From the NCBI RefSeq assembly GCF_011038885.2, contig NZ_CP064952.1, positions 558,001 through 622,000 of the forward strand: a stretch of 64,000 bases of DNA, read 5' to 3'. This document shows positions 1 through 61,892 of this stretch, piece by piece (positions within the stretch are counted from its first letter, which is position 1; the number at the start of each line of letters is the position of its first letter). The DNA is from Schaalia sp. ZJ405 (GTDB taxonomy: Bacteria > Actinomycetota > Actinomycetes > Actinomycetales > Actinomycetaceae). The position numbers were made by a program, and so were the translations under genes. The notes beneath the pieces are model-generated. The model did not search any database. It saw nothing but the letters and a program-made list of their open reading frames with translations, and was not told the origin of the DNA.

Positions 1-49
1 CGCTGATCTGCGAGAATACACTGGGAGAGGGCGTCGTCCTCGACAATGA
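1..49 (+). CDS. possible 3' end of purK (partial)
   Basis: The frame starting at base 2 is open until a TGA at 47-49 and encodes 15 residues (ADLREYTGRGRRPRQ). purK (N5-CAIR synthetase) commonly lies just before purE in actinobacteria, and the 12-base gap to the purE ATG fits an operon. The fragment is too short to identify by sequence, so the call rests on context only. Confidence 0.25.
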   Translation, partial: ADLREYTGRGRRPRQ

Positions 50-61
50 CAGGGAGCAATC

Positions 62-613
62 ATGGAGCCTCAACTTGACGTGCAACTGACCGCCACGGGT
101 CAGACCCCGCTGGTCGGAGTTGTCATGGGATCGGACTCGGACTGGCCGACGATGGAACCAGCGGTTGCGGCGCTCGCGGAATTCGATATCGCGTGCGAGG
201 TCGGAGTGGTATCGGCGCACCGGATGCCCGAAGACATGGTTGCCTACGGGCGCAGTGCCTCGGGGAGAGGTATTCGCGTAATCATTGCGGGCGCTGGGGG
301 AGCCGCTCACCTCCCGGGGATGCTTGCAGCGCTCACAGAGCTGCCGGTCATCGGAGTTCCAGTTCCTCTCAAACATCTCGATGGCGTTGATTCTCTCCAC
401 TCAATTGTTCAGATGCCTGCTGGTGTCCCCGTCGCCACCGTGTCGATCGCGGGGGCACGCAACGCCGGTCTGTTGGCCGCGCGGATCCTCGGTGCTGGTG
501 AGGGAGAACGCGCTGAGACCCTGCGCTCGAAGATGCGTGTTTTCCAATCCGACTTGCGGGCGGTGGCAATGGACAAGGGAGCCAAGCTCGCCGACCGCGT
601 TCGAGGAAGCTGA
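62..613 (+). CDS. purE: PurE, N5-carboxyaminoimidazole ribonucleotide mutase
   Basis: PurE converts N5-CAIR to CAIR in cytosolic de novo purine synthesis. The 183-residue length fits class I PurE. The substrate-binding signatures are visible: GSDSDWPTME near residues 23-32, the SAHRMPE loop near 51-57, and GAGGAAHLPGM near 77-87 followed by PVIGVPV. The ATG at 62 is preceded by a GGGAG ribosome-binding site. The last 20 bases of the gene lie inside the 245-bp duplication made by the downstream insertion sequence, so a second, non-coding copy of the gene tail is present at 2513-2532. The gene itself is intact. Confidence 0.96.
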   Translation: MEPQLDVQLTATGQTPLVGVVMGSDSDWPTMEPAVAALAEFDIACEVGVVSAHRMPEDMVAYGRSASGRGIRVIIAGAGGAAHLPGMLAALTELPVIGVPVPLKHLDGVDSLHSIVQMPAGVPVATVSIAGARNAGLLAARILGAGEGERAETLRSKMRVFQSDLRAVAMDKGAKLADRVRGS

Positions 614-59007: not shown

Positions 59008-60032
59008 CAGCGAGGCACCGGAACCTGGCTGAGGATTCCCTCAACAATTGCCTGAGCGGTCAAGCCCTCCAGATCCGCCTCGGCTTTCATTCCAATACGA
59101 TGAGCGAGAACGGGAACAGCCACACCCTTGACGTCGTCGGGGGTGACGAAGCCACGCCCCTGAAGGAACGCCCACACTTTCGACGCCTGAAGCAACGCTG
59201 TTGCACCACGAGGTGACACTCCCAGGCGCACCGACGGTGAATTCCGCGTTGCGCGCACAAGGTCAACGATGTACTCGATGATCGCGGGTTGAACATCGAT
59301 CCGCTGGGCGTGCTCGCGTGCCGTGCGAATCTCCTCGGGTCCGGCAACGGCGGTGATTCCTGCCTGCGTCAGTGCCAGGGGGTTGAATCCGTGCTGATGC
59401 TTGGACACAACCGCGATTTCTGCGTCGCGCGGTGGAAGATCAAGCGTGATCTTCATGAGGAACCTGTCAAGCTGGGCCTCGGGAAGAGGATACGTGCCCT
59501 CATATTCCACGGGATTCTGCGTCGCAATCACCATGAACGGATCGTCAAGACGATGGGACTGGCCATCAACGCTGACCTGATGTTCCTCCATCGCCTCAAG
59601 CAGGGAGGACTGGGTTTTCGGTGGAGTCCGGTTGATCTCATCCGCCAGAAGCAAATTCGTAAAAACGGGGCCGCGTCGAAACTCGAAAGCTGACTTGCCT
59701 GAATCCCACACGAGTGACCCGGTGACGTCTGCCGGCATGAGGTCGGGAGTGAACTGGATACGCGTCATCTTCAGATCAAGTGCCGTAGCAAGTGTCCGCA
59801 CAAGAAGCGTTTTCGCCACACCGGGAACCCCTTCAAGCAGGGTGTGACCGCCGGCGATGAGGGAAATAATCAAGCCCGTGACCGCGGAGTCTTGACCAAC
59901 AACGGCCTTGGAGATTTCTGAACGCAAAGCGACGAACGCAGCACGTAAGGCCTGCTCGTCCTCGTTCAGCATCCGGCCCGACGGGGCAGTGGCGCTTTGG
60001 GGTGGAGGCGCAGGAACCGCGGGATTAGTCAT
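59007..60032 (-). CDS. moxR: MoxR family AAA+ ATPase
   Basis: A 341-residue AAA+ ATPase: Walker A-like LLEGVPGVAKTLLVR near 62-76, Walker B LLLADEINRTPPKTQ, and sensor region IATQNPVEYEGTYPLPEAQL. MoxR proteins work as chaperones that activate vWA partners, here DUF58. ATG 60032 overlaps the DUF4350 stop by eight bases; an upstream in-frame start at 60059 is less likely. Confidence 0.95.
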   Translation of the reverse strand: MTNPAVPAPPPQSATAPSGRMLNEDEQALRAAFVALRSEISKAVVGQDSAVTGLIISLIAGGHTLLEGVPGVAKTLLVRTLATALDLKMTRIQFTPDLMPADVTGSLVWDSGKSAFEFRRGPVFTNLLLADEINRTPPKTQSSLLEAMEEHQVSVDGQSHRLDDPFMVIATQNPVEYEGTYPLPEAQLDRFLMKITLDLPPRDAEIAVVSKHQHGFNPLALTQAGITAVAGPEEIRTAREHAQRIDVQPAIIEYIVDLVRATRNSPSVRLGVSPRGATALLQASKVWAFLQGRGFVTPDDVKGVAVPVLAHRIGMKAEADLEGLTAQAIVEGILSQVPVPR

Positions 60033-61236
60033 GGCAAATCTCCTTTTCGAGGTCGGCAAGCCGGGAGGCTAGATCAACGAGTTGACGTTCAGATTGGGGG
60101 GAAGGCCCCCACAGGAGGTCATCGAGACGGGCAGGATCAACCCCCCGATGCTCCAGGGCACGACGGAGTTCATCGCCGCTCCCTCGCGGATTCACCCCAA
60201 GGAAGCGCGCAAAACGCATCGCGTAGTCGCGTCGAAGCGCGGTCGCCGCATGGTCCCACGCACGATTTTTCCGCAGCAAGCGTCCCTTACCAATGACGGT
60301 TTCCGATGCGGGAACCTGGGCGGGAAGATCCTCTGGAACGAGCGCCCCCAGTCTCCGTCCCCGCGCGAGGCCGAAAATCACCAGGGAACACCCCGCGAGG
60401 ACGACAAGGGGATTGAGCCACGGGGGATCCGTCGTCGGTGTGGCTTTCATTGAGTCCTCTTCGGAGGCCAGATACCACACCACTCGATCCGTTCGTCCGA
60501 GAACATTGAGCATCAGTGCCCCGTGGCCGTGCTCAGTGATCTGCGAATTACGCACCAGCCCCGAATCAGGGATAACGGCGCGAAACGAGGACGAATCTGC
60601 TCCCGCTGCGCTCTGGACATAGCCGTAGGAGCCGTTTTCCTGGGGGAAACACCAGGTCCACGAATCGGTGTCCCTCGCTGGTGTTTCGTCGCGACTGAGG
60701 GATTCATCGCCGAACTCGTTGGGAGAAACACCGTACATTGAGGACGCAATGGAGGAGGCTGCCCGTGCTGGAGAGGCAGCGCAGTGAGCAGACACCGCGG
60801 GCGCAGTGTCGTCGGCGCTCGGGGTGCCTTCCGCTGTTGGCCACAAACCGGGGAAAACCTCATCGTAGGACTGTTCGGTGCCGATATAGACGAGATTCGG
60901 AAGCTTGTTGATCGCCGATGTCACGTCGGAACGCATACGGAACGGAAAGACAACGACGACCGTCGCATCGGGGTGAGCTCGGACCTGGGCAAGAACATCG
61001 ACCGCCCGATCGTGCGATGTGACGGTCACGCCGTGACGTTCCAGGACCTGTGCAACAGCGCGGGCACCGTTCGGGGCGGCGTTTTCTGGGCTGACTGGGC
61101 GTGAATCTCGCACAGATGCGGGAAGGAGTACGAGGACGAGGACGGCCGCCAGGACAACCGCGGCGATGACAGCGAAGGGGCGGAGGCGTCGTGCAATGGT
61201 ACGAGGACGAGGCGTGATGACGCGCGTGGATGTCAC
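60025..61236 (-). CDS. DUF4350 family membrane protein
   Basis: A 403-residue protein with an amino helix (about 21-40, PFAVIAAVVLAAVLVLVLLP), a DUF4350 domain (NGARAVAQVLERHGVTVTSH and a following alpha/beta fold) and a second helix near 275-293. It belongs to the moxR operon and overlaps both neighbours by a few bases. The family is thought to be an accessory of the MoxR-DUF58 system; mechanism unknown. Confidence 0.88.
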   Translation of the reverse strand: MTSTRVITPRPRTIARRLRPFAVIAAVVLAAVLVLVLLPASVRDSRPVSPENAAPNGARAVAQVLERHGVTVTSHDRAVDVLAQVRAHPDATVVVVFPFRMRSDVTSAINKLPNLVYIGTEQSYDEVFPGLWPTAEGTPSADDTAPAVSAHCAASPARAASSIASSMYGVSPNEFGDESLSRDETPARDTDSWTWCFPQENGSYGYVQSAAGADSSSFRAVIPDSGLVRNSQITEHGHGALMLNVLGRTDRVVWYLASEEDSMKATPTTDPPWLNPLVVLAGCSLVIFGLARGRRLGALVPEDLPAQVPASETVIGKGRLLRKNRAWDHAATALRRDYAMRFARFLGVNPRGSGDELRRALEHRGVDPARLDDLLWGPSPQSERQLVDLASRLADLEKEICHD

Positions 61237-61892
61237 GGGCGACTCACCCCCGTTTCTGCGGGAGCGGTCTGCGGCAACTGGGCGCGGAGACTATCGAGGA
61301 CGAGAGCCGCGGTGGTCTCAAGATCGTCCACATCGCGCGAGGAGACGGTTGACTCTCCGTAGCGGATTGCGTCAAAAACTTCTGACTGGTGACGGAGGCG
61401 GTCCGCCAGTTGAGGAACCCGGCGTGCTGCGGCTTCGGTGGCTTCCTTTGCCGTTAAACCCGGACCGTCGTGGAGGATTCGCATGTGCGCCAAGGTGAGA
61501 ACGAGGAGGCGGAATGCCCAGATGAATGAGTCATTCCAGGAGCCGCTCTCTTTCGCTGCGCTCAGGCGTTTGAGCGCGAGAGCTGCCGAGACGTTCTCGT
61601 CGTCAAAAACGGTTGACGAGGTCACCCGACGGCGCCGAAGCCGCACGAATATCGTGAGGAAAACACCGATGATCAGGAGGAGTGCGACGACCGCGAGGAT
61701 GATGTATTCAATTGGGGGGCGCGTTCCTGAACCCGAGCCGCCCAGGAGATCCACAATTGCTTGGAGGATCACCCGGATGAACCGCGTGATCGGACTGAGT
61801 TCCGTGGAATACTCCGGCCGAGACAGCTCCTGTTCGAGCCAGCGTTGTGCCTCATCGTGGTCGGGAGTCACGGGAACGTCAGCGGGGAACAC
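61233..61892 (-). CDS. DUF4129 family membrane protein
   Basis: A 219-residue protein with one strong helix (about 65-87, IIAVVALLLIIGVFLTIFV without the leading residues) and a carboxy helical domain with GLTAKEATEAAARRVPQLAD, typical of DUF4129 (which often sits at the end of transglutaminase-like proteins). It is coupled to the DUF4350 gene by a four-base overlap and lies just after the following membrane gene (61893). Confidence 0.87.
   Translation of the reverse strand: MFPADVPVTPDHDEAQRWLEQELSRPEYSTELSPITRFIRVILQAIVDLLGGSGSGTRPPIEYIILAVVALLLIIGVFLTIFVRLRRRRVTSSTVFDDENVSAALALKRLSAAKESGSWNDSFIWAFRLLVLTLAHMRILHDGPGLTAKEATEAAARRVPQLADRLRHQSEVFDAIRYGESTVSSRDVDDLETTAALVLDSLRAQLPQTAPAETGVSRP

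Follow-up and report, generated by a model that had tools for sequence, protein, structure and literature searches.

The genome of Schaalia sp. ZJ405 is densely marked on both strands with a 9-base word, CGAGGACGA. From its sequence properties we read this word as the likely core of a DNA-uptake sequence, with a probability of roughly 0.72; it would be one dialect of a tag with the core CGA[G/C]G-N-CG in part of the Actinomycetaceae. The stretch analyzed here, referred to as the window, is the 64,000 bases from 558001 to 622000 of the one-contig genome (2,345,961 bases). An earlier note on the window had taken it for a candidate genomic word under selection, of the uptake type or another. Codon nulls, strand neutrality, dialects of a common core, and a consensus wider than the word itself support that proposal. 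The dialects and the wider consensus favor uptake over Chi, FtsK-orienting polar sequences (KOPS), or codon bias.

CGAGGACGA is found 38 times in the window as an exact match, 20 times on the plus strand and 18 times on the minus strand (Table 1). The 36 positions given in the earlier note are all correct, and two further plus-strand copies, at 47603 and 60396, had been missed. Dinucleotide-preserving shuffles of the window (n = 100) gave a mean of 1.37 copies and a maximum of 5. The word is thus rare by chance, as had been claimed, with the bound of fewer than one expected copy being slightly too low. Its order-3 Markov z-score is the highest among window 9-mers with at least eight copies (38 observed, 2.4 expected). 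Genome-wide, there are 1001 copies (481 forward, 520 reverse), or one per 2.3 kb, against 34 copies (15 forward, 19 reverse) of a control word that is the same word read backwards. We also sampled 20 evenly spread stretches of 20 kb, which together with the window make up 464 kb. This sample holds 214 copies (109 plus, 105 minus), distributed near to Poisson (index of dispersion 1.20 in 46 bins of 10 kb). With replichores inferred from GC skew, 102 of the 214 copies are on the leading strand and 112 on the lagging strand (p 0.54). The lack of strand skew first seen in the window therefore holds across the genome and, in the sampled copies, by replichore.

Codon use had been judged a poor explanation for the word, and two null models bear this out. 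Open reading frames (ORFs) were called with a simple purpose-made caller. Synonymous-codon shuffles within genes (n = 200; 359 sampled ORFs) gave a mean of 26.8 copies and a maximum of 42, against 175 observed. A stricter shuffle that keeps the proteins and the bases on either side of each codon (387 ORFs, 504 kb, 25 repeats) gave 26 copies against 191 observed; six control words of like build occurred at 0.5–1.2 times expectation under this null. Within the window, 500 synonymous shuffles of 50 ORFs gave a mean of 4.2 and a maximum of 10, against the 35 genic copies. For the word on the sense strand, offsets 0, 1, and 2 hold 10, 1, and 61 copies (shuffle means 0.56, 0.19, and 12.7); for its complement they hold 34, 63, and 6 copies (shuffle means 3.0, 10.1, and 0.23). 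All six frames exceed the shuffle means, one of them by a single copy, and the excess includes Ser-Ser-Ser (34 vs. 3.0) and Arg-Gly-Arg (10 vs. 0.56). The word is denser between genes, at 0.69 per kb (40 copies in 58.1 kb), than within them, at 0.43 per kb. Neither similar counts in codon-shuffled controls nor a sharp drop outside Asp/Glu, Ser, and Leu/Val codon pairs, named beforehand as signs of a codon by-product, was found: the shuffled counts are far lower and the excess extends to every frame and to intergenic DNA.

The word may also have left a mark on proteins. Ser-Ser-Ser occurs at 2.5 times and Glu-Asp-Glu at 2.0 times its frequency in amino-acid shuffles, with no excess of Glu-Glu-Glu (0.63) or Glu-Asp-Asp (0.53), and TCG TCC TCG spells 34 of the 116 Ser-Ser-Ser triplets. 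The Ser-Ser-Ser and Glu-Asp-Glu excess looks as though the word had shaped the proteins. In a 14-kb com region, two of the six exact genic copies are at places where the protein is unlike its relatives, and the other four at places with no aligned relative; thus, substitution vs. insertion is not proved. A 622-residue GTPase of this region, with 86–90% identity among aligned relatives, has no copies at all. Two records (L140 and L144), under the names Xylanimonas cellulosilytica 352_XCEL and Sanguibacter keddieii 250_SKED, have a ComEC and a GTPase like those of the Schaalia records, the GTPase being about 90% identical to that of ZJ405, and are apparently misnamed.

The word is the core of a longer motif. 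The consensus of about 19 bases is R-K-K-R-A-CGAGGACGA-G-G-n-C-G, with R at −5, G/T at −4 and −3, R at −2, and A at −1. The preference for a preceding A was already noted, and it is found in 24/38 window copies and 136/212 sampled copies. The flanks of the 40 intergenic copies are the strongest: A at −1 in 85%, R at −2 in 92%, G/T at −3 in 92%, and G/T at −4 in 90%, where 21, 50, 50, and 50% are expected. Upstream spellings at −4/−3 in intergenic DNA are TT in 15/37 and GG in 9/37. In coding frames the flanks are mostly weaker, not at every position (G/T at −3 is at 44% in one frame), which is what codon constraint would give. At sites with at least six of seven flank letters matching, the exact core occurs 63 times and all 27 one-letter variants together occur 37 times, mostly with changes at core letters 6 and 9. 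The copies scored by the position-weight matrix were also its training set, except for the window flank scores, for which the matrix came from the other stretches. A mobile short repeat was rejected as the source of the copies, which lie in many unrelated contexts and share about 19 informative bases only.

Pairs of words in reverse-forward order, 9–35 bases apart, occur five times against 1.0 expected, and forward-reverse pairs twice against 1.0. The five reverse-forward pairs are in stretches L011 (C1:261317), L010, L013, L015, and L024. Terminator-like inverted pairs were set aside, as four of the five lie inside ORFs.

Related genomes carry the tag in other spellings. Relatives were sampled at 16–80 kb each, with whole-genome data for word counts only; Trueperella and Arcanobacterium are represented by two named loci each. 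ZJ405 has 314 copies of the extended word KKRACGAGGACGAG (reversed control 0); none of the 34 other genomes of the genus has more than 27. The counterpart ACGAGGCCGGGGC occurs once in ZJ405 and 166–303 times in G009, G010, G011, G019, G022, G023, G025, G028, and G034 (reversed control 0–2), with 69 copies in G031. In 17 of 20 sampled relatives (about 80 kb each), the six most overrepresented 8-mers include one of the form CGAGG-N-CG; the exceptions are G005, G007, and G035. The surroundings of this 8-mer differ: ACGAGGGCGGG in G014; ATTGACGAGGG and ACGAGGGCGAC in G003; ACGAGGCCGGG in G010, G025, and G028; and CCGAGGCC in G018, G024, and G026. The word CGAGGNCG has z ≥ 4 over synonymous shuffles in 21/26 congeners (not in G005, G026, G030, G031, or G032, nor in G035 of another genus). 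Under the stricter null it is clear in G000 (3.2), G004 (4.3), and G014 (3.4), and outside the genus in G082 (7.3), G123 (4.6), and G176 (3.1). The flank information of CGAGGNCG exceeded that of every control word in G000 and G003 only; k-mer and shuffle tests were therefore used for the relatives.

The other form of the core is seen in other genera of the family. Under the stricter null CGACG-N-CG is in excess in G035 (4.6 times), Trueperella (3.8 times), and Arcanobacterium (4.8 times); the values for CGAGG-N-CG in the same sets are 1.0, 0.8, and 1.7. Loci of Cellulosimicrobium, Georgenia, and Cellulomonas give 1.0–1.4 for both. We counted ACGAGGNCG and ACGACGNCG in 151 whole genomes of the family. 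G082 has 926 copies of ACGAGGNCG (control 54) and 81 of ACGACGNCG (control 199), and G092 has 209 (control 145) and 1401 (control 55), respectively. G093 and others have many of both; G093 is GC-rich and codon use accounts for most of them. Neither word is in excess in some genomes, such as G032, G062, G085, and G173. On a ComEC tree, the genomes sharing the G010/G025/G028 spelling form a clade (support 100/100), as does the Trueperella/Arcanobacterium class (100/99). The tree is built from one protein with short rows and long branches, and does not fix the place of ZJ405. Dialects of a common core in related species are new here.

A search for com/pil genes, proposed in the earlier note, found comEA, comEC, dprA, and two Tad/Flp clusters in the ZJ405 genome. 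ComEA, with SLBB and helix-hairpin-helix domains, is encoded beside ComEC. Among the named loci (Schaalia, Actinomyces, Trueperella, Arcanobacterium, and others), this ComEC has its best matches mostly in Schaalia and Actinomyces records. The first Tad/Flp cluster (about C1:92541-97550) encodes a TadA-like ATPase, a DUF4244 pilin, and a TadE/G-like protein; the second (about C1:1715284-1719775) encodes a TadA-like ATPase, a T2SSF protein, and TadE. The classical pilin motif PF07963 had no match above the cut-off in this genome. Across the family, ComEC is found in 150/151, DprA in 147/151, and the DUF4244 pilin in 148/151 genomes. Being nearly universal, the competence genes are permissive evidence only, and comparing the presence or absence of ComEC, DprA, and DUF4244 with that of the word has no power.

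In an uptake system of this kind, a surface part of the machine, with a Tad/Flp minor pilin or ComEA as candidates, would recognize free DNA by binding the word. Import would be the task of the pilus together with ComEA, ComEC would pass one strand, and DprA/RecA would recombine it. DNA with the word would enter more often and word-making alleles would be copied more, so that words would build up at all sites where the sequence allows them. With an altered receptor, a new dialect would begin and exchange between species would be hindered. Several ACGACGNCG-rich genera (g2, g37, g44, g46, and g52) have weaker DUF4244 pilin scores, with E about 1e-7 to 1e-13, than the ACGAGGNCG-rich genera (g1, g43, g47, and g48; E about 1e-17 to 1e-23). 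The exceptions are g29 and g42, which are ACGACGNCG-rich with strong scores, and kinship may explain the trend. We take the score difference between word classes as a lead for the receptor.

The Neisseriaceae and Pasteurellaceae are given in a 2025 paper as the only families known to tell their own DNA by a word at uptake (PMC12616744). As described for the DNA uptake sequence (DUS) of the Neisseriaceae (PMC3630211), the ZJ405 word is abundant on both strands, has a short invariant core in a longer word, and is lacking in some relatives. Dialects that follow phylogeny are a DUS feature; here, two spellings form clades of the ComEC tree and ACGAGGGCG is scattered. The systems differ in the core (CTG in the DUS, CGA[G/C]G here), in the family, which here is Gram-positive, in copy number (2245–4549 for the DUS vs. 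1001), and in the missing classical type IV pilin motif. The uptake signal sequence of the Pasteurellaceae, as presented in PMC12616744 and PMC5031613, is nine bases long as well, lies within a wider consensus, and comes in two types that have a common inner core. It differs in sequence and phylum, and the pilus available in ZJ405 is of the Tad/Flp kind; a receptor is not established in either. The same set of genes is reported for Micrococcus luteus: comEA, comEC, dprA, and two tad clusters, with no further competence pilus, as here. That species uses Flp pili for transformation and loses transformation without comEC (PMC4322843). The term "uptake sequence" is not mentioned in the main text of that paper.

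Since most of the testable sequence-level marks are present, we read CGAGGACGA as a DUS-like uptake tag that belongs to a third lineage, making no claim of membership by descent. With somewhat less assurance, we lean toward a third, independent origin of uptake sequences, the first in Gram-positives, with dialects across part of the family that would be read by a Tad/Flp-pilus machine, self-recognition having evolved with no ComP-like type IV minor pilin.

The strongest alternative is that the word is the site of a chromosome-organizing or global DNA-binding protein, selected chromosome-wide, with dialects that track changes in the protein. The even spread of the copies, a consensus wider than a restriction site, and the greater density between genes all agree with such a site, but we consider the alternative unlikely. 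The word has no strand preference, which speaks against it, and we know of no protein that recognizes this site, though no search aimed at one was made. Each change of dialect would also require hundreds of sites to be respelled by selection, which biased uptake with recombination would do unaided. We give less credence still to a link with DNA modification, in which the word would be a methyltransferase target, an uptake tag that is methylated, as reported for Campylobacter, or a word kept by methylation like HIP1 of cyanobacteria. HIP1 is an overrepresented word and a methylase site, so there is precedent for methylase sites of this type. The motif here is non-palindromic with about 19 informative bases and graded flanks, unlike the usual target, and its spellings vary at several positions. 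Chi and KOPS are short, frequent, functional genomic words, as CGAGGACGA would be, and its density would suit a signal for recombination or segregation; they are strand-polar and CGAGGACGA is not, and with no leading-strand bias in the 214 sampled copies we rejected this polarity, leaving such a signal very improbable. Least probable of all is a by-product of codon use, codon-pair habits, acidic or serine-rich proteins, or base composition: the Glu-Asp-Glu, Ser-Ser-Ser, and Val-Leu frames do hold the majority of genic copies, and other families of the order reach up to about 6 times and the GC-rich congener G012 about 39 times the reversed control (mostly explained there by the stricter null, 39 vs. 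29), but for the ZJ405 genome we rejected it on the two nulls that fall short of the count, the intergenic excess with the strongest flanks, the few copies in congeners of similar GC (50 in G016, 57 in G018), and an excess of Ser-Ser-Ser and Glu-Asp-Glu but not of Glu-Asp-Asp or Glu-Glu-Glu.

Several observations weigh against the uptake reading. The bare 9-mer ranges in the genus from 31 copies (G032) to 1183 in G012, above ZJ405, and codon use gives 29 of the 39 sampled copies in G012. The G012 count being mostly codon use, the bare 9-mer does not define the species, and the claim of a selected word needs narrowing: among GC-rich congeners the 9-mer is not special to ZJ405, and the extended word KKRACGAGGACGAG is. 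ACGAGGCCGGGGC is also common outside its main clade, in G012 (159) and G014 (128), and the ACGAGGGCG spelling does not follow the ComEC tree. The simple shuffle is unspecific for CGAGGNCG, with z of 7.1 in Cellulosimicrobium, 4.8 in Cellulomonas, and 2.8 in Georgenia loci; under the stricter null its excess is just 1.1–2.3 times in 23 of 26 congeners, where control words reach up to 1.6, and it is absent from 16 kb of G032. The machinery is also present in some genomes with neither ACGAGGNCG nor ACGACGNCG in excess, and thus does not predict the word. The excess of close pairs is not specific proof, nor is depletion of the word in the insertion sequence (IS)/polysaccharide part of the window, the boundary of which was chosen afterwards. 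The literature consulted held no uptake or transformation result for this species.

Within the window, 35/38 copies are in called ORFs. The copies at 4807 and 28544 are between genes, as the earlier note had said, and so is that at 34. Its statement that the word is absent from the IS also holds: positions 43-4806, which include a DDE transposase ORF (1150-2493), are free of CGAGGACGA. The first 26 kb, with this transposase and polysaccharide genes, have only 5/38 copies, by a boundary picked after the data were seen.

Table 1. Exact copies of CGAGGACGA in the window, with strand and surrounding ORF.
Copy	Strand	Location	Remark
34..42	-	intergenic	directly upstream of AIR-carboxylase ORF 62-613
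4807..4815	-	intergenic	
8850..8858	+	ORF 7246-9267	
13099..13107	-	ORF ~11715-13220	
20245..20253	-	ORF ~19972-22389	
26354..26362	-	ORF 25510-26685	
26906..26914	+	ORF ~26649-28448	
27239..27247	+	ORF ~26649-28448	
27659..27667	+	ORF ~26649-28448	
28544..28552	+	intergenic	
28905..28913	-	ORF 28664-29956	UDP-glucose dehydrogenase family
33549..33557	+	ORF ~33322-34617	
34341..34349	+	ORF ~33322-34617	
35397..35405	-	ORF ~34614-35714	
38690..38698	-	ORF ~38185-39612	
39043..39051	+	ORF ~38185-39612	
42240..42248	+	ORF ~40788-43223	
43009..43017	-	ORF ~40788-43223	
43865..43873	-	ORF ~43225-44742	
44149..44157	+	ORF ~43225-44742	upstream flank GGGGA
44481..44489	+	ORF ~43225-44742	upstream flank ATTGA
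45625..45633	-	ORF 45002-46024	epimerase/dehydratase family
47115..47123	-	ORF 46970-48073	
47603..47611	+	ORF 46970-48073	missing from earlier list
50101..50109	+	ORF 49385-52771	
50246..50254	-	ORF 49385-52771	
50691..50699	-	ORF 49385-52771	
53273..53281	-	ORF 52624-54438	3-base overlap with copy 53279
53279..53287	-	ORF 52624-54438	overlaps copy 53273
55069..55077	-	ORF ~55047-55628	top flank score of window (upstream ATTGA, downstream GGCCG)
55188..55196	+	ORF ~55047-55628	
56708..56716	+	ORF 56474-57499	
59956..59964	-	ORF ~59010-60062	
60396..60404	+	ORF ~60028-61239	missing from earlier list
60586..60594	+	ORF ~60028-61239	
61131..61139	+	ORF ~60028-61239	
61202..61210	+	ORF ~60028-61239	
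61295..61303	+	ORF ~61236-61895	

Local repeats of other kinds were seen in the sampled relatives (80 kb each). Stretches L107-L110 of G035 have about 85 copies each of words such as GCGTGCGGAGA and GAAATACCTCC, perhaps a CRISPR array. The others are AACAGAGCGGA (9 times in L047-L050, G013), CGGATAGGTTA (7 times in L103-L106, G025), and AATTGCATGCG (6 times in L099-L102, G010).

We found no report of such a word for this family among the matches listed in a literature search of titles and abstract openings, which covered few subscription journals and preprints. No paper came up when full texts were searched for four of the words, each as a whole word. If the uptake reading is true, a monoderm family with a different pilus would supply the third case, and with it an independent replicate for asking why uptake words exist. 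It would bear on whether such words arise by biased uptake and on the joint change of receptor and word. The uptake reading predicts natural transformation in the genus Schaalia, in Trueperella, and in Arcanobacterium.

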